Positions 1 through 33,835 of a stretch of 43,405 bases of DNA are shown here, piece by piece. The first letter of the stretch is position 1; every line of letters begins with the position of its first letter. Below the pieces are notes generated by a model. The model saw only the letters and a program-made list of their open reading frames with translations. It was not told the origin of the DNA and searched no databases. The position numbers and the translations under genes are program-made. This DNA is from Myxococcales bacterium (GTDB lineage: Bacteria; Myxococcota_A; Polyangia; Nannocystales; Nannocystaceae): contig JAAZXR010000034.1 of NCBI GenBank assembly GCA_014240065.1, positions 1-43,405 on the forward strand, in the 5' to 3' direction.

Positions 1-2
1 TG

Positions 3-59
3 ATCCGCGTCACCCGAGAGCTTCAAGACATCGCGACCTCTGTTCGAATGATCCCGGTG
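3..59 (+). other. CheA dimerisation-domain fragment, inverted relative to its gene
   Basis: Read on the plus strand from base 3, this stretch encodes 19 residues, IRVTRELQDIATSVRMIPV. This looks like the end of the CheA P3 dimerisation helix, whose family signature is ELQ-x(n)-RM(V/I)P. The match ends at about base 59. After that the plus frame is simply the antisense of the Hpt linker on the minus strand. A CheA P3 piece should lie downstream of the Hpt domain on the minus strand, so this piece is turned around. It is either a real inversion inside cheA or a foldback/chimeric join at a contig end. The motif is seen directly; the cause is inferred. Confidence 0.7.
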
Positions 60-565
60 GCGGCGCCGCTGGTCGCTTCCGGGGGGGTCTGCGTCGTCGA
101 GCCCCCTTCTTTCGCCTCTCGAGTGAGCCGCTGAAGCTCCTCGTTCATCTGCTGAAAGCCGTCCTCGATGCCTGCGTCGGTCATGGATGACTCGATGGAG
201 TCCAGGGCTTCGGAGGCCATATCCAGGGCCCTGCACAGGGTGCTCACGTGCTCTGCGGTCGGGACATCACCAGAAGACCGGAAGTGATCGAGGAGAAATT
301 CGCTCTCGTGGGTGACCTTCACGAGTCGCGCGAAGCCCAACACACCGGCGCTCCCCTTGAGTGAATGGAACGCGCGGAACGCCTTGTTGATGAGCTCCGT
401 GTCGAGCACGCCGTCGCTCTGGCTCGCGGCTTCGATCTCGAGGAGCGTCGGCTCGGCGTCGGCGATGAGGTCGCGACCCTCTGCGATGAACTCTCCAATG
501 AGCTCTTCGGCCTCTTCGGGTGAGAGGCCAAGCGCAGCGAGTGGATTGTCGTCTTCTATCGACAT
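23..565 (-). CDS. cheA: CheA-type Hpt domain protein, broken 3' end
   Basis: This is a 180-residue cytoplasmic protein with an N-terminal histidine phosphotransfer (P1) domain. The phospho-accepting His lies in AFHSLKGSAGVLGF at about residues 66-79, the classic CheA/Hpt motif. An acidic helical stretch comes first, and a Ser/Thr/Gly/Pro-rich linker follows from about residue 152. A full CheA histidine kinase has about 650-750 residues with P2-P5 domains, and none of these follow. The frame stops just after the linker. The last dozen residues are antisense to the CheA P3 fragment at 3-59, so the C-terminus is probably an artefact of the rearranged join and the stop is not native. The gene starts 10 bases after the chemoreceptor gene ends, which fits one mcp-cheA operon. 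A genuine stand-alone Hpt protein is the alternative, but it is less likely. Confidence 0.85.
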   Translation of the reverse strand: MSIEDDNPLAALGLSPEEAEELIGEFIAEGRDLIADAEPTLLEIEAASQSDGVLDTELINKAFRAFHSLKGSAGVLGFARLVKVTHESEFLLDHFRSSGDVPTAEHVSTLCRALDMASEALDSIESSMTDAGIEDGFQQMNEELQRLTREAKEGGSTTQTPPEATSGAATGIIRTEVAMS

Positions 566-574
566 GATGCTGGC

Positions 575-2893
575 TTAGTAGCGGTCAAAGTTGTCGTCGA
601 AGGTCAGCATCTCTCCAGGAGAGGCGGCGGTGGGCGCGGATGGGCTGGTGCCGGTGGCAGCAGATCCGGCGTGGTCAGTGTTCGCTGCCGGGACGCTCAG
701 GCTGTCGATGTACGGGCGGAGCGCCTCGAGGAGATCCGGGGGGATCACGTCGACGGGGATAACCTCTCCCGACCCGGTGCTCACGCTTCGGTTTCGGAGG
801 CGGAAGCGGTCGAACATCGAGCGCATGCCCTCGGAGTTCGAGAGCAGCGTGCCCGCAGCGGAGGCGCTCTCTTCGGCGGTCGCCGCGTTTTGCTGCGTGA
901 CCATATTGACCGCGGCGAGGCCCTGGTTGACCTCGGAGATGCCCCGCGCTTGCTCCTCGCTCGCGAGCGCGATGTCGGTGACGAGGTTGGTGACCCGGTC
1001 CACATTCCCCACGATGGTGGTGAGCGCCTCCGCGGTGTGGTTGGCGAGGTCGGTGCCGAGCTTCACCTTCGCGAGCGTGCCTTCGATCATGGAGGTGGTC
1101 TCCTTTGCGGCCTTCGCGGACCGCGCGGCGAGGTTCCTGACCTCCTCTGCCACGACGGCGAACCCCTTCCCGTGTTCGCCGGCGCGGGCCGCCTCCACCG
1201 CGGCGTTCAAGGCGAGCAAGTTGGTCTGGAAGGCGATTTCGTCGATCACCTTGATGATGCGGGAGACGTTTTGACTCGCCTCGTTGATCCCGCCCATGGC
1301 GTCGACCATGTCCTTCATCTGCTCGTCGCCGCTGCGGGCGCCGTCGCGGGCGGTTTGGGCCAGAGAGCGGGCGCTCTCGGCGTTCGCGGAGTTCTTCCGG
1401 GTCTGCTCGGTCATCGAAGACATCTGCCCGCTGATCTCGTCGAGAGTGGCGGCTTGCTCATTCGAGCCGCGCGCGAGGTTGTTGGCAGACTCCGAGATCT
1501 GAATGGCCGAGTCCGCGACCTGATCGGCGGCGACCCTTACATTCCAGAGCGTGTCGTTGAGGATCGTGAGGGTCCCGTTGAAGGTGTCTTGGAGTTCAGC
1601 GAAGTCTCCCTTGAACGCTCCGTCGAGCTCGTAGCTGAGATCACCGTCCGCCATACGTTTGAGGGTCTCGATGAACGCGGAGTTCCCTGCCACGAAGGTG
1701 TCGACCATGCCGTTGATCCCGTCGCACAGCCCACGATAGTCGCCTGGGAAGAGCTCAGCGTTGGCGCGCTCGCTGAATTCGCTCTCCTTCGCGAGGCCCA
1801 TCAGCCGGTCAACCTCAGAGGTCAACTGCTTGATGACGCTCATCGTGGTGTTGATGCTGTCGGCCATGGTTCGAACGTCGCCGGCGTATTGATTCTCGAT
1901 CAATCGAGAGAAGTCACCAACGGCGACGCGCTGCATGGCGTCGGTCGCTTCGCGGACCGGTGAGATGAGGTTGTCGATGAGCTCATTGACGCCCTCGATG
2001 AGCTCCGCGTAGGCGCCCTCGAAGGCCTCCTTGCTGGCGCGGACCTCAAAGTCGCCGGCCTTCGCACCTTCGACGAGATGGGCGATCGCCCCGACGAGGG
2101 AGGACAGGACGCTCTTGACCTGCTCGATGCTGGCGATGATTTGTCCGAGCTCTCCTCCTGGGCGAATCTTCAACACGCGAGAGAGATCTCCGCGGGAAGC
2201 GTGGGCGAGCCAGTCGCCTACTTCGCGGAACGTCAACACCACGACATCGATCATCGCGTTGACGTGCGTGGCGCTGGTCTCCTGCGCAGGTTCCAGCCCC
2301 TCGGTCGACATCCGCTCCGAGAGGTGCCCCTCGCGCAGGGCCGCGGCGACTCGTTGGAGCTCCGCATCGAACGCCTCGAGCTTTGAAGCTCTGCTCAGCG
2401 CGAGTTCGTGAACAGCGAAGACCCGTCGGTTGATGGCGTCGACGAGTTCGACCATGGCGGCGGCACCTGGCGGGGTCACGAGCGCCTGGGGTTCGCCGAT
2501 GCTCGTCTCCACGTCGCTGCTGACCTCGTGCACGAGCTCTTTGATCTCGTCCTTGGTGATTCCGCGGGTGGGCAACAGCGAGAGGACTCCTCCGCCGTCG
2601 GGGCTGGCCCGCACGTGCACCGCGAATCGCTCGTCCGTCGCGTCTCCGACGGGAACGAGTTCTTGAACTCGGACCTTATCTCCAGCGATGAGCTGGCGGA
2701 CGATGTCAGGTTTGCGTCGGCCCGCGATGGCAGCCCAGGCTTTCTTGCCAACCACGGCGTCGCCGGTGAGCCCGAGCACATCCGCTGCCTCCGAATTGAT
2801 CGCGGTGACCTCGCCCTTCGGAGAGAACGCCACGGCGGGGCAGGGGAAAGTGTCCACAAGTTGTTGGCCTGGCTCGGGCGAAGATACGGTCAT
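575..2893 (-). CDS. Soluble PAS/poly-HAMP methyl-accepting chemotaxis protein
   Basis: This is a 772-residue chemoreceptor that would control a CheA kinase. Residues about 8-110 form a PAS-like sensor domain ([20 protein letters not shown]). A helical region follows, then at least three tandem HAMP-like modules between about 210 and 440, each with a DLS/DFS/DLSY-type turn. The MCP signalling hairpin spans about 450-690, and its conserved tip ([20 protein letters not shown]) lies near residue 555. No membrane segment or signal peptide is visible, so it should be a cytoplasmic receptor, probably in a cytoplasmic array. The C-terminal 80 residues are a Pro/Ala/Ser-rich linker ending in an acidic-aromatic tail (TFDDNFDRY) without the NWETF methylation pentapeptide. 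It lies directly upstream of the Hpt/CheA gene. The ATG at 2893 begins just before the PAS domain. Confidence 0.95.
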
Positions 2894-3469
2894 GGTTGGG
2901 CTTTCATCGTCTCAAGTGAGCGCGCGCGGCGGAGACGTCGCGGGGCGGTCTCAAGGGTTTCCAAGAGGTCATCGGTCTGTAGAGACGGGACTTTACGCAG
3001 ATCTCTTGCCCCGAATCGGGCTTCGTGGAGGCCGCGCGGTGCGATGCAGGACACGCGTACAGTGGGCCTATCGCTGGCGCATCCGGCCCGAGTCGGGAGG
3101 CGGAGTGGAAAGCGGATGGCTGTCCTCGGGCGCTGGCGCCGATTCGTCTGGAGGGGAGGGTTCACGTCACTGTGGTTTGTGCCGCGGATTTAGCGGACCG
3201 CAGCGGTCGGGCTCGAACGGCCAGGAAGTCGTAATCGGGACACGCGCGCAAAATGGCGCCACGACCTGTCCCATCCCGGAGGCGTCGGTGTCCTAGCTCC
3301 CCATGGCGCGTTGAATTCAGAGGAAGAGGCGTCGAGCGGAGTGGTGCGGAGTGGATCCGATCTCTGGGCGCCGTCGCCCCAGATCGCGAAACTCGCGCAT
3401 GCTCAGGGGCCGAGGTGTCCGCGTCGCATGCCCCCGACCTTAAACGACATGTGGTGTTTCAAAATGAGT
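2894..3469. other. Non-coding stretch upstream of the chemoreceptor gene
   Basis: About 575 bases lie between the chemoreceptor start and the tRNA terminator. Open frames exist on both strands, but their translations are Arg/Ser/Pro-rich, low in complexity and typical of shadow frames in high-GC DNA. The chemoreceptor promoter should lie here. No convincing -35/-10 pair, RNA gene or repeat could be picked out by eye. Confidence 0.5.
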
Positions 3470-3497
3470 AAAGGCCCAGCGAAAACGCTGAGCCTTT
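3470..3497 (-). terminator. Intrinsic terminator after tRNA-Val
   Basis: On the minus strand the RNA forms a 12-bp stem (AAAGGCUCAGCG pairing with CGCUGGGCCUUU, one G-U pair) around a UUUU loop. It is followed by UACUCAUUUU. It begins six bases beyond the tRNA 3' end, in the right place and orientation to end the tRNA transcript. The T-run is weak but present. Confidence 0.75.
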
Positions 3498-3502
3498 GTG
3501 GG

Positions 3503-3575
3503 TGCGACCATCAGGACTTGAACCTGAGACCTCCTCGGTGTGAACGAGGCGCTCTACCAGCTGAGCTATGGTCGC
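3503..3575 (-). tRNA. tRNA-Val (anticodon CAC)
   Basis: On the minus strand a complete 73-base cloverleaf is visible. The acceptor stem is GCGACCA/TGGTCGC with discriminator A. The D-arm contains AGCTCAGCTGGTAGAGC. The anticodon stem CCTCG/CGAGG holds loop TTCACAC, giving anticodon CAC, which reads GUG (Val). The variable loop is five bases. The T-arm is TCAGG-TTCAAGT-CCTGA. CCA is not encoded: the next bases after the discriminator are CCC. It therefore needs CCA added by the nucleotidyltransferase. It sits alone between its own promoter and terminator. Confidence 0.97.
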
Positions 3576-3587
3576 GAGTGGGGGCGG

Positions 3588-3616
3588 GTTGTACCGATGT
3601 TTTGCCGCTGGCGCAA
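3588..3616 (-). promoter_or_regulatory. Putative sigma70-type promoter of tRNA-Val
   Basis: On the minus strand a -35-like TTGCGC (3611-3616) and a -10-like TACAAC (3588-3593) are separated by 17 bases. The -10 ends about 12 bases before the tRNA 5' end, an ideal arrangement for a tRNA leader. Found by eye only. Confidence 0.55.
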
Positions 3617-3779
3617 GGTCGGCGACTCAATGGGCTCTTAGGCCGCGGATCGCCGGGGAAATTGGGGGGAGCGTGCGGCTGGTGTGGCGCCGCAGCGGTC
3701 TCGGGAAGTGGGGGGAGCGCCGGTCGGTGGCCCGCGCCCCGTGGCACCGGGAGCCGTCGCTGGGAGGTTTCAGGCGTGG

Positions 3780-3810
3780 CTGACGAACCCTCTCGAGTTC
3801 GGGCTATACT
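3780..3810 (+). promoter_or_regulatory. Possible promoter of the ridA-prkA gene run
   Basis: TATACT at 3805-3810 is a good -10 element, about 36 bases before the ridA start. The best -35 candidate is CTGACG at 3780-3785, with a long 19-base spacer, so the -35 assignment is weak. The rest of the 3617-3846 gap shows no other feature. Confidence 0.35.
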
Positions 3811-3846
3811 CGGCCGATCTGCGCAGCGCCGCAGGAGCAATGATCG

Positions 3847-4242
3847 ATGCCACGTACGACGATTTCCACGGACGACGCGCCCGCCGCGATTGGACCCTAC
3901 AGCCAAGCCGTGTGTGTCACGGGCGGGCGGACGCTGTTTACCTCCGGCCAGATTCCGCTCGACTCCAAGACAGGAGCGATGGTGGGTGGCGACGACGTGA
4001 GCGCTCAAGCGCTCAAGGTGATGGACAATCTCCTCGCGGTCCTGACGGCCGCCGACATGGGGTTTGAGCATGTGGTGAAGGCGACGATCTATCTGCTCGA
4101 TCTCGAAGATTTTTCCGCGGTGAACAAAGTCTATGCCGCGCGATTTCACGGGACGCCGCCGGCGCGCGCGTGCGTTCAAGTCGCGCGCCTCCCCAAAGAC
4201 GCGAGGGTGGAGATTGACTGCATCGCGGTCGCTGAGAATTGA
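3847..4242 (+). CDS. ridA: RidA family enamine/imine deaminase
   Basis: This 131-residue protein has the standard length of the YjgF/YER057c/UK114 family. RidA is a cytosolic homotrimer that hydrolyses reactive enamines and imines, such as 2-aminoacrylate made by PLP enzymes, and so protects other enzymes. Family hallmarks visible are AAIGPYSQAV near the N-terminus, LFTSGQIPLD at about 30-39, and the C-terminal signature PPARACVQVARLPKDARVEIDCIAV. The Arg in PPARACVQV is at the place of the catalytic Arg105 of E. coli RidA. The ATG at 3847 gives the canonical N-terminus. Its stop nearly touches the next gene, suggesting cotranscription, although a metabolic link to that gene is not obvious. 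Confidence 0.97.
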   Translation: MPRTTISTDDAPAAIGPYSQAVCVTGGRTLFTSGQIPLDSKTGAMVGGDDVSAQALKVMDNLLAVLTAADMGFEHVVKATIYLLDLEDFSAVNKVYAARFHGTPPARACVQVARLPKDARVEIDCIAVAEN

Positions 4243-4265
4243 CGCATGGAGAGAGGACAGACGCG

Positions 4266-7076
4266 TTGAGCGCGACGGACCCCGATCCGCGCACGAGGAC
4301 CGCGCTGTATCTCGCCGTCCTTATGACGTTCGGCCTGGCGATCACGTCGATTTTTTTTGGACGATACGAGTCGCATGCCGACGCGAGGCCTGAGGGGCTG
4401 ACGCCGGAGCTGCGGCGAGGCGAGCGACGAGCGGCAGAGCCCGCGGCGAAGGTGCTCGTTGGACGCGTCTTCCTCGAACGCGAGCGCGACCACGACGCGC
4501 CCGCGGTCGAAGACGCGCCCGCGGTCGAAGACGCGCCCGCGGTCGAAGACACGGGCGGAGGATCGCCGGGTGCGGAGCCCGAGGGGGCGGACTCGATGGA
4601 GGCCGCGACGCGGCCTGGGGCGGAGGAGGCTGATCGTGGTGTCCCCATGGATTCTGCGACGGCGTGCGCAGTCTCTGTTTGGAGGACCGGGCGCATGCTC
4701 ATCGAGGGAAGCTGTGATCGCGAGGGGAGATTCTCGCTCGCGCTGCCTCCGGGGGCGCTGTCGGGGGCGGAGGTGACGAGCGTCGAGCTCCTCGTCCCGC
4801 GCTACCTTCGGGCCTCGCTGCCGCTGACAGGCTCGGAGGCCGCACCGCAGACGGTCACGGGAGCCACGGTCGATCTCGGAGCGATCGGGCTTGGTCCTGC
4901 GGTGCCACTCCGCGGGCTGGTGATCGACGCGTCGGGGAGCGGCGTCGCCAACGTGGTCGTGGAGGCGATGCCCGTCGACAACCTCGGAGAGCCCGAGCCG
5001 TGGCGGGCGACGACAGACGCGGAGGGGCAGTTTGAATATCGCACCCTCCCACGGGGGCCCTTGCGCGTGGCGCTCGCCGATCCGAGGTATGCGCCGTCGG
5101 TGGTTGAAGCGGTCGCGCCGGATCACGAGGTGGTGCTGCCTGTGTCTCGGTACAAGACCGTGGCTGGCACTGTCCACTACGACACGGCGATCGAGGCGGC
5201 CGGGCTCCCGGTCCTCGCTCGGATCCAGGGATCAGGCGTGTGGCCGCCGCGCACGGCGAAGGTGGACAGCGACGGAACCTTCGTGTTCGACGCGGTGCCC
5301 GACGGGGTGTACGCGGTCGAGGCCCTCGCGCTCTCCGCGGATGGCTCTGATAGTTTTGCCAGCGACATCGTCGAAGATGTGTCTCCCGACGACCCCGTCT
5401 CGTTGACGCTCAAGCCGTCCGGGTGGGTGCGCGTGCAGGTGCTCGGTCCCGGCGGCCAGCCAGTGGCGGCGGCGCGGGTGACGGCCGGGTTTGGTGCGCT
5501 CTCGATGCTCCAAAAAGTCGGGACCACCGATGGGGGGGGATTCGCCACCGTAGGGCCGTTGGGTGTGGGCTCGCAGGTCGTGTCGGTCGCCGCGGATGGA
5601 TTCCTCCCGGCGCCCGGGCTGATGGTCGAGGTCGCGACCGATTCAGATCGTACGCCGGTGCAGGTGCGTCTGACTCGTCCGCAGACGCTCCGAGGCCGCG
5701 TGGTGGATCCGCGGGGAGGGCCCTCACCCTCGGCGGTCGTAGAGCTCGTCGCCACGAGCGCCTTTACACCCGGGGAGAATCAGGTCGCCGCGCGGGTGTT
5801 CTCCACGCTCGTGCGGACCGCCACGGGCAGCCTTGGGGTCACGACCGGGCCGGTGCCTGGCATCCCTCTGTTCGCGGGGGCCGCGGACGTGGCGGGTGGT
5901 CGGGTGCCGGTGAGCGAGACGGGGGAGTTCGAGTTTAACGGCTTGGTACCCGGGGAGTACACGCTCGTCGCCTATGACGCTGGATACGCTCGATCCGCCC
6001 CGGTGGTGGTCCGCCTCCCACGCGCGTCGTCCGAAGCTGTGGTGCTCACGCTGCGCGAAGGAGTGCTCGTGGACGGGCGAGTCTCTGACCACCGCGGTGT
6101 GCCGCTCGAAGACGCCATCGTCCAGGTCGTCGACGATGGTGTGGAGGTCCAGACCGACACGCGCGGGCGATTTGACGTCGGCACACGAACCGGGACGGTC
6201 ATATTGATCGTCCGCGCGGAAGGCTACGCCCCTCGCAGGGTGTCGCGGAGTCTCGAAGAGAGCTCGTTGTTTTTGGACGTGCAGCTCACGCCCGCCACGG
6301 GGCGTTTCTCAGGCCGCGCCCGCGGTGGCAACGACCGCGTGGTGGAGGGGGCGATCGTTCGGCTGACGTACGCGGATCCCCTGTTCCGTGACCACGTCAT
6401 GGTCTCTGATGGGCGCGGACTGCTCGAGGCGGACGGCTTGGTCACAGGCCCCGCGAAGCTCGAGATCATGCACCCCGATCATGTCTCGCAGACGCGGTCG
6501 ATCGTCGTGGGCGAGGACGAAGAACTCTCAGAGATCGTGTTGGTCTCAGGATGGGAGCTGGTGGTGGAGGTCCGCGATCGCAAGACAGGCGATCGCGTCG
6601 CCAACGCTCGGGTGATGGCGGACGCGCGAGGTGTCCGAAGTAATCGACGCGGCGAGGCTCGGTTCTCGCATTTGCCCGCCGGTACGATCCTCCTCGAGGT
6701 GTTGGCCGACGGCTACGTGCCGTGGCGGGAGACGCTGACGGGGGAACGTGAGGGGCAGGTCGATCAGGTGGTCGAGCTGGAGGAGGGGGGGAGCATCGAG
6801 GGGGAGGTCCGTGACGACGTCGGCGAGGCGGCTCCGAATATCCGCGTGGAAGTGGTGCGCCGGCGGGGCGGTGAAGTCCTCGGAGAGGCGACGACAGACG
6901 CGGGCGGGCGGTTTCGCGTGGACGCTCTCCCCGAGGGAGAGGTGGAGGTGTTCGCGAGGGTGCCTGCCCCTCGTCGCGAGCTCCTGGGCGATGCGCGGCT
7001 CGCGAGCGACGTGCTCCCCGGCCAGGTCACGAGGGATGTATTCTTGCGATTTGACAGGCGCGCTCCTCAAAACTAG
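4266..7076 (+). CDS. Membrane-anchored protein with carboxypeptidase-regulatory-like repeats
   Basis: This is a 936-residue protein. A single N-terminal membrane segment (YLAVLMTFGLAITSIFF) places the rest outside the cytoplasm, as a type II anchor or an uncleaved signal. A low-complexity acidic linker follows, with a three-fold perfect repeat of EDAPAV. The remainder is about nine Ig-like beta-sandwich repeats of the carboxypeptidase-regulatory/Cna-B type. Each carries the recurrent pattern V-DxxGxP(L/V)xxAxVxVxxxxxxxxTDxxGxFxxxxLPxG. Such repeats are structural or adhesive and have no known catalysis. The frame is open from TTG 4239, but TTG 4266 is preferred because GGAGAGAGG lies 9-18 bases upstream. 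It follows ridA closely and precedes a lipoprotein gene by 9 bases. No catalytic domain was found. Confidence 0.9.
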   Translation: MSATDPDPRTRTALYLAVLMTFGLAITSIFFGRYESHADARPEGLTPELRRGERRAAEPAAKVLVGRVFLERERDHDAPAVEDAPAVEDAPAVEDTGGGSPGAEPEGADSMEAATRPGAEEADRGVPMDSATACAVSVWRTGRMLIEGSCDREGRFSLALPPGALSGAEVTSVELLVPRYLRASLPLTGSEAAPQTVTGATVDLGAIGLGPAVPLRGLVIDASGSGVANVVVEAMPVDNLGEPEPWRATTDAEGQFEYRTLPRGPLRVALADPRYAPSVVEAVAPDHEVVLPVSRYKTVAGTVHYDTAIEAAGLPVLARIQGSGVWPPRTAKVDSDGTFVFDAVPDGVYAVEALALSADGSDSFASDIVEDVSPDDPVSLTLKPSGWVRVQVLGPGGQPVAAARVTAGFGALSMLQKVGTTDGGGFATVGPLGVGSQVVSVAADGFLPAPGLMVEVATDSDRTPVQVRLTRPQTLRGRVVDPRGGPSPSAVVELVATSAFTPGENQVAARVFSTLVRTATGSLGVTTGPVPGIPLFAGAADVAGGRVPVSETGEFEFNGLVPGEYTLVAYDAGYARSAPVVVRLPRASSEAVVLTLREGVLVDGRVSDHRGVPLEDAIVQVVDDGVEVQTDTRGRFDVGTRTGTVILIVRAEGYAPRRVSRSLEESSLFLDVQLTPATGRFSGRARGGNDRVVEGAIVRLTYADPLFRDHVMVSDGRGLLEADGLVTGPAKLEIMHPDHVSQTRSIVVGEDEELSEIVLVSGWELVVEVRDRKTGDRVANARVMADARGVRSNRRGEARFSHLPAGTILLEVLADGYVPWRETLTGEREGQVDQVVELEEGGSIEGEVRDDVGEAAPNIRVEVVRRRGGEVLGEATTDAGGRFRVDALPEGEVEVFARVPAPRRELLGDARLASDVLPGQVTRDVFLRFDRRAPQN
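4494..4547 (+). repeat. 18-bp tandem repeat, three perfect copies
   Basis: The unit GACGCGCCCGCGGTCGAA occurs three times head to tail (4494-4511, 4512-4529, 4530-4547). It is in frame with the membrane-anchored repeat protein and encodes DAPAVE units in its linker. Copy number could change without a frameshift. Confidence 0.95.
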
Positions 7077-7629: not shown

Positions 7630-10020
7630 ATGAGCCACGCGAGCGCGTCTGATCGAATCCGAGAGTTGGCGCAGGGCATCGAGGGGGACTTCGACAAGTC
7701 ACGCCGGGTGCTGTCGTTCAGCGAGTGGTTTGAGATTTTTTGTGAGGCGCCGACGCTCCACGCGCGGAGCGCCTCGCAATACGTCCGCGACGCGATGCTG
7801 CACTTTGGTACCGAGGAGGTGCGTACACCCGGAGGCTTGGTGCGGCGGTTCCGAATTTTTGACGCCTACGTTCAAGAGGGGCGCGCGCTGTCCCCCGAGT
7901 TTCAAGATTCAGAGCTGCCTGGGCACGCGGTCTCGGGGCGCCGGCTCGTGGGCCAAGAGCGCGCTCAGAATATGATCTTTGAGTCCCTCGACGGGTTCTG
8001 CCGACTCGGACGGGTCGACAAGCTCTTGCTGCTCCACGGTCCAAATGGGTCCGCCAAGAGCACCCTCTTGGAGTGCCTGCAGCGTGGGCTTGAGGTCTAC
8101 TCCACCACGGATGAGGGCGCGCTGTATCGCTTCGCATGGATCTTCCCCAACGAGAACCCGACGGGATCGGGGATCGGCTTCGGGGCGGGGCTCGTCAAGG
8201 ACCGCCTCGGGACCGAGAGCTTCGCCGCGCTGCAAGGCAAAGACGTAGACGCTCGCGTCGTCGATGAATTCAAAGACCATCCGCTGTACCTCCTGCCCCA
8301 GCTTGATCGCGAGCGCCTGTTGTACGACGTCCTCGGCGACGAGAAAGATTTTGTGGTGAGCGAGGCCGTCGCGCGTGGCCAGCTCTCCGCGCGGAATTAT
8401 CGGATCTTTGAGGCGTTGTTGGCGGTGCACAAGGGCGACCTCAAAAAGGTCTTGGCGCACGTCCAAGTGGAGCGTTTCTTCATGAGCAGGAATTACCGCT
8501 TGGGGCTCGTGGACGTAGAACCGAAGCAGGCAGTGGATGCGCGCTCATTTCCGGTGACCGGAGATCGGGCCTTCGCCGCGCTGCCGGCCTCCGTGGCCGG
8601 TCAAGTGTTGTATGGCGCACAGGGTGATCTGGTGGAGGCGAATCGCGGGCTCATCGCGTTCAGCGACCTGCTCAAGCGAAACTACGAGCACTACAAATAC
8701 CTCCTCACGGCGGTCGAGGGCCGCCGGGTCGCGCTCGACCACATCACGCTGAACCTCGACGTGGTGTTCACGGGCTCCGCGAACGACATCGATCTGCTCG
8801 CGTTCCGTGAGCAAAACCCGATCGAGTATCAGAGCTTCCAGGCGCGACTGGATCGCATCAAGGTGCCGTACCTGCTCGACTATCGGGTCGAACGCAAGAT
8901 TTACAGCGAGCAGGTTGGCGACCTGCTGCGCGGGGTTCACATCGCCCCTCACGTGTGCCGCACCCTCGCCCTGTGGGGCGTGATGACCCGCATGCGGCGG
9001 CCCAACTCCAACGAGTATCCGGACTGTATCGCGGAGGTGCTCCGCAGGCTGACGCCGCTGGACAAGGCGGATCTGTTCGCCTACGGCCGCGTCCCCGAGG
9101 GGCTGACAGGCGAGGAGGCGCGCGAGCTGCTGGCCGCGGTCCCGCACATGTACGAGGAGCAGTTCGAGCACGCGTTTGTTCGCATCGACGGTCGTCGGGT
9201 CGACGACTACGAGGGCTCCTTCGGCGCGAGCGTGCGCGACCTAAAGAACATCCTGTTGGACGCGGCGTCATCTCCAGAGGTCACGTCGGTCACCGTGCCC
9301 ACGATCTTCGAATACCTGCGGGCGTATCTGCGCGACAAATCCAATCATCGGTGGATGGATCTCACCGCCGATTCGACCTTCCACCTCCTCGATGGAGACG
9401 AGCGCAGCGTGACCGAGGCCGCCTGGGAGCGCTGGCTGGATCTCTCGGAGCGAGAGGTTCGCAAGGCGCTCGGGCTCGTGGATGAAGAGCGCTATCTCGA
9501 GTTGTTCCGCAAATACGTGACCCACGCGCGCCATTTCACGCGCAAGGAGAAGCTGTTTGATGAAGTGACAGGATCCGTCACCGAGGCGGACGAATCTTTC
9601 ATGGGAGAGATCGAGCGCTCGATCGATCCCACGGGCTACGACGTCACCAAGGAGACCGAGGAGACGCGCCGAAAATTCCGCGAGGAGGTGATCGCGAGGA
9701 TCGGCGCCTGGGCGCTCTCCAATCCAAATCAGGAGCCGGCGCTCGAGGAGATCTTCACGGATTACTTCTCAAGGATGCGGGAGGACTATTATCGTCAGCA
9801 AAAGTCAACCGTGTCTGACGGCGTGCGGATGATGCTGGAGCTGTTGACGGACCACGAGCCGGTCGATCGCGACGAGGCGCTCGACGGGGACACCCGCGAC
9901 CGCGCGCGGGAGGCCATTGAGCTCCTCACCAAGGACGAGTGCGCCTCGGCGTTGTCCGAGTTCCACACCGAGGAGACGCTCAAAGAGATGCTCGTCGCCC
10001 TGACCAAGTATCGGTTCTAG
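7630..10020 (+). CDS. prkA: PrkA family AAA+ serine protein kinase
   Basis: This 796-residue cytoplasmic protein resembles PrkA/YeaG. The family couples an AAA+ domain to a C-terminal kinase-like region and acts in stress, nitrogen-starvation or sporulation responses. Visible motifs are LVGQERAQ at about 107, Walker A HGPNGSAKST at about 136-145, the PrkA signature EANRGLIAFSDLLKRN at about 337-352, and LDVVFTGSANDIDLL at about 375. The C-terminal half holds the PrkA domain, with RRPNSNEYPD and LKNILLDAAS. It is about 150 residues longer than E. coli YeaG (644), with the extra length spread through the C-terminal half. The usual partners, a YeaH/DUF444 protein and SpoVR, are absent here. It starts 4 bases after the lipoprotein gene, so translation may be coupled. 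No strong Shine-Dalgarno is seen. Confidence 0.95.
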   Translation: MSHASASDRIRELAQGIEGDFDKSRRVLSFSEWFEIFCEAPTLHARSASQYVRDAMLHFGTEEVRTPGGLVRRFRIFDAYVQEGRALSPEFQDSELPGHAVSGRRLVGQERAQNMIFESLDGFCRLGRVDKLLLLHGPNGSAKSTLLECLQRGLEVYSTTDEGALYRFAWIFPNENPTGSGIGFGAGLVKDRLGTESFAALQGKDVDARVVDEFKDHPLYLLPQLDRERLLYDVLGDEKDFVVSEAVARGQLSARNYRIFEALLAVHKGDLKKVLAHVQVERFFMSRNYRLGLVDVEPKQAVDARSFPVTGDRAFAALPASVAGQVLYGAQGDLVEANRGLIAFSDLLKRNYEHYKYLLTAVEGRRVALDHITLNLDVVFTGSANDIDLLAFREQNPIEYQSFQARLDRIKVPYLLDYRVERKIYSEQVGDLLRGVHIAPHVCRTLALWGVMTRMRRPNSNEYPDCIAEVLRRLTPLDKADLFAYGRVPEGLTGEEARELLAAVPHMYEEQFEHAFVRIDGRRVDDYEGSFGASVRDLKNILLDAASSPEVTSVTVPTIFEYLRAYLRDKSNHRWMDLTADSTFHLLDGDERSVTEAAWERWLDLSEREVRKALGLVDEERYLELFRKYVTHARHFTRKEKLFDEVTGSVTEADESFMGEIERSIDPTGYDVTKETEETRRKFREEVIARIGAWALSNPNQEPALEEIFTDYFSRMREDYYRQQKSTVSDGVRMMLELLTDHEPVDRDEALDGDTRDRAREAIELLTKDECASALSEFHTEETLKEMLVALTKYRF

Positions 10021-33133: not shown

Positions 33134-33835
<702 letters not shown>

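Follow-up and report, generated by a model that had tools for sequence, protein, structure and literature searches.

The left end of the contig analysed here raises the question of why a piece of cheA encoding the P3 helix on the plus strand should lie directly beside the beginning of a cheA gene on the minus strand. The window is the entire contig C163 (43,405 bases), which belongs to an assembly of 235 contigs totalling 4.72 Mb with an estimated contamination of 1.47%. A preliminary description of this end had left two readings side by side, namely a foldback chimera at a contig end or an invertible segment inside cheA. The left end can be divided into the following parts, in which C6 denotes a second contig of the same genome:

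1-55, plus strand: overlap of k-mer length carrying the sense strand of the CheA P3 helix, artefactual here; identical to C6 9698-9752 (minus strand)
56-65, no strand assigned: junction zone, GGTGGCGGCG here vs CGTGGCGGCG in C6, a 9/10 match in an ungapped comparison, microhomology
66-106, minus strand: start of the CheA linker after Hpt, apparently the authentic flank of the join; unique in the genome
107-565, minus strand: CheA N-terminus with the Hpt (P1) domain, start codon at 565; Pfam Hpt E 5e-13
23-106, minus strand: artefactual and linker tail of the minus-strand ORF; antisense P3 supplies its stop codon (23-25)
575-2893, minus strand: methyl-accepting chemotaxis protein (HAMP_2 and MCPsignal by Pfam), the upstream neighbor of cheA; same order in the congener

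Plus-strand bases 3-59 translate to IRVTRELQDIATSVRMIPV, and on C6 this same peptide falls within an H-kinase_dim (PF02895) domain, which establishes it as a real CheA P3 rather than a chance resemblance, as the preliminary description had supposed. Its recognition of an adjacent minus-strand Hpt domain and linker is likewise borne out: Pfam places an Hpt domain at residues 21-117 of the ORF running from 565 to 23, the product of 107-565 shows 95% identity to the congener CheA over 153 aa, and the frame is lost at the join. The linker portion at 66-106 has low similarity to the congener linker, which is usual for linkers. The final residues of the ORF (about GIIRTEVAMS) together with the stop codon are antisense P3 and not CheA, and hence this stop was created by the join and does not belong to CheA. 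The strand switch itself falls at base 55/56, with bases 57-65 fitting both sides as microhomology, in agreement with the earlier placement of the junction near base 60. On visual inspection, an N-terminal membrane anchor is not evident in the methyl-accepting chemotaxis protein immediately upstream; it has a weak PAS match below the Pfam cut-off, and HAMP_2 stretches precede its signalling domain. These features suggest, on sequence grounds, that it is a cytoplasmic receptor.

The remainder of the gene is found on C6 (9,968 bases), where the P3 sequence lies near the right end on the minus strand. An ORF entering from the contig edge runs for 427 aa with no stop and encodes in succession the linker (EPKPAAKPKPAAKAPAGKKPARTSA), P3, the ATPase and the CheW-like domain (H-kinase_dim, HATPase_c and CheW in Pfam), and is followed by cheW, cheR and cheB; the end of C6 falls within an 18-bp tandem repeat of the linker (9928-9965). 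All four CheA domains, Hpt, dimerisation, ATPase and CheW-like, are present in the genome, divided between C163 and C6 and continuous in the congener. A genome search recovered a single further CheA copy, on C167. That the assembled ORF stops at base 23 is what one would expect if a fixed rearrangement had truncated cheA in this lineage, leaving a pseudogene or an Hpt-only protein. We consider this very improbable, given that the remaining cheA sequence on C6 is conserved and keeps an open frame, its linker being read in phase right from the contig edge, that cheW, cheR and cheB are intact after it, and that the join falls precisely where the contig terminates in a k-mer overlap.

As a reference for the intact gene we used CALKDV010000092.1, an uncultured Nannocystaceae MAG contig, evidently from the one same-genus genome compared. 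It encodes a single uninterrupted CheA of 635 aa, in which Hpt is followed by ~80 residues of linker and then by the P3, ATPase and CheW-like domains. Positions 1-1423 of this contig align to C163 (minus strand) and 1665-4122 to C6 (minus strand), all in one orientation, and it carries an intact mcp-cheA-cheW array across both contig ends; the unaligned stretch is the fast-changing linker only. Because one contig spans both in a single orientation, C163 and C6 are neighbors, and as judged from this alignment they adjoin within the repetitive Ala/Pro/Lys-rich CheA linker. If the linkers are equally long, the DNA missing between them amounts to about 120 bases (~0.1 kb). The Hpt-P3 linkers of the two genomes (congener 1424-1664, C6 9890-9968) differ almost wholly, against an identity of ~95% between the Hpt domains, which points to a fast turnover of this Ala/Pro/Lys-rich linker with tandem repeats between congeners. 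Set side by side, C163 and C6 yield Hpt, linker, H-kinase_dim, HATPase_c and CheW in the manner of CheA proteins of other mcp-cheA-cheW-cheR-cheB clusters, the sole peculiarity being the fast-changing Ala/Pro/Lys-rich linker with its 18-bp tandem repeat.

The nature of the inverted piece emerges from its exact length. Bases 1-55 of C163 match C6 9698-9752 (minus strand) at 100%, and the identity breaks at base 56; a wider match between the two contigs extends over 68 bases at 97% (E 3.4e-26). To place this overlap in the context of the assembly, we drew a sample of about 80 contigs, region by region, giving 157 ends. An all-against-all comparison of contig ends was dominated by hexamer (Gly-Asp) repeats, and it was repeated with a complexity filter, followed by a count of exact terminal overlaps. 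The longest exact match between an end and any other place in the sample was exactly 55 bases at 13 of the 157 sampled ends, the window included, and at no end was it 54 or 56-80 bases; at interior control points 55-base exact matches were absent (0/1,500). At other contig ends with a 55-base overlap, the identity likewise stops cleanly at base 56. C57-C60 are wholly masked as N and account for 8 of the 157 sampled ends and up to 8 of the 202 interior pieces, so that the 400-base terminal matches and low-complexity calls at their ends are N runs and meaningless.

The spike at 55 bases at contig ends, absent from contig interiors, identifies 55 as the k-mer length of the assembler. De Bruijn assemblers such as metaSPAdes and MEGAHIT are known to produce contigs whose ends share maxK bases at break points (PMC10914622), and terminal matches of one recurring fixed length are what we observe. 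The inverted CheA scrap is therefore one k-mer graph vertex common to C6, without further DNA. It resembles the maxK end overlaps described for COBRA (PMC10914622) in that exactly k bases (55), a recurring length, are shared at a branching vertex. It departs from them in two respects: the shared k-mer is internal to C6 instead of terminal, and the orientation of the branch is opposite to the true gene order. As a consequence, joining C163 and C6 through the shared k-mer would be wrong. The left end of C163 is almost certainly an artefact, a false branch of a de Bruijn-graph assembly with k = 55. The exact identity also bears on whether the P3 55-mer might come from a rearranged copy in another strain through binning or strain mixture. 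While an assembly this fragmented, with some estimated contamination, leaves room for such an admixture, the 55 bases are identical to the genome's own C6 and the only other CheA is on C167; we regard this as the least probable of the explanations considered.

A further alternative is a genuine inversion present in a fraction of the population. Here, a cheA segment of ~0.4 kb, from the linker to P3, would invert and reversibly switch CheA off. The native gene would have a 9-bp inverted match at both boundaries (CGCCGCCAC in the linker and GTGGCGGCG in P3), and both C163 and C6 end near the locus, as is also expected from population heterogeneity. However, the inverted stretch measures exactly one k-mer and does not continue further, and the congener cheA occurs in one orientation only. 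Inverted 9-mers between the congener linker and P3 arise in 45% of codon-shuffled controls; inverted repeats beyond chance at both boundaries were not found, the match being only 9 bp in a GC-rich linker. A search of the genome recovered no serine recombinase (Resolvase family match), and the three tyrosine recombinases (Phage_integrase) that it encodes are on C167, C110 and C207, with no recombinase encoded near cheA on C163 or C6. Further, no native inverted copy of the segment was seen. Hence, such an inversion appears highly unlikely, and the same low probability attaches to its corollary that C163 and C6 represent two orientations of which the assembler caught one junction, the only one seen in the assembly. 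Of the two readings in the preliminary description, the chimeric contig end is supported and the invertible segment is not: the inverted cheA scrap is non-biological, and the gene is an ordinary cheA, in an equally ordinary che cluster, split across two contigs at its linker.

How the false branch arose can be reconstructed in outline. The true locus comprises, on one strand, mcp, cheA(Hpt), the Ala/Pro/Lys-rich linker, cheA(P3-P4-P5), cheW, cheR and cheB, in the order C163 (minus strand), a gap of ~0.1 kb in the low-complexity linker, and C6 (minus strand). With a de Bruijn assembler at work, the branch from sense P3 into antisense linker must derive from reads bearing the join, and we infer that these were chimeric. 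One or more fold-back reads probably fused the linker to the other strand of the P3 region, roughly 0.4 kb downstream, with a short GC-rich microhomology mediating the fusion; the assembler would then have retained the false branch, stopped C163 at the branching 55-mer and failed to traverse the linker. At the join, the two sides share 9 bases (CGCCGCCAC / GTGGCGGCG) next to a single mismatch, and CGCCGCCAC is probably the microhomology used by the fold-back read, the exact microhomology being uncertain because the native linker following the Hpt side is missing from the assembly. Among MDA chimeras, the most frequent class consists of inverted sequences with an intervening deletion, and more than 70% of the junctions show 2-21 nt of complementarity (PMC1855051); ordinary library preparation also yields inverted chimeric reads (PMC10908179). 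The present join is comparable to these in linking opposite strands of nearby loci (P3 sense and antisense linker), in lacking the DNA between them and in having a short microhomology (9 bp shared) at a GC-rich site, and either laboratory step, MDA or library preparation, may lie behind it. The junction sequence is absent from the 38 related genomes searched. The graph branch requires some reads, or smaller-k contigs, bearing the junction, and a rare real population variant could also have been their source. A simple snap-back hairpin, in which a molecule folds back on the same sequence, was rejected because its arms would have to come from one region of cheA, whereas those observed come from two.

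The apparent inversion of cheA thus reflects assembly and no biology, and once C163 and C6 are recognised as adjacent, the che cluster of this genome is complete except for the gap of ~0.1 kb. More generally, the case offers a quick check for other assemblies: where a contig terminates in an unexpected inverted fragment whose length equals k, that fragment is a graph overlap.

Low-complexity repeats were found at 63 of the 157 sampled contig ends vs 8 of 202 interior pieces, counts which include the all-N contigs C57-C60. Hexamer tandem repeats (TCGCCG, GAGACG, GACGGC) occur in the window at 33585-33663 and on C6 at 1-71 and 5063-5105, where they encode Gly-Asp runs within predicted proteins, and similar repeats are present at many contig ends; they are probably a main cause of the fragmentation of this assembly. 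Elsewhere in the window, the sole tRNA found is a tRNA-Val (anticodon CAC; 3501-3575, minus strand), and a perfect 18-bp tandem repeat of 3.2 copies at 4494-4550 encodes a repeated APAVED peptide within a 945-aa ORF (4239-7076).
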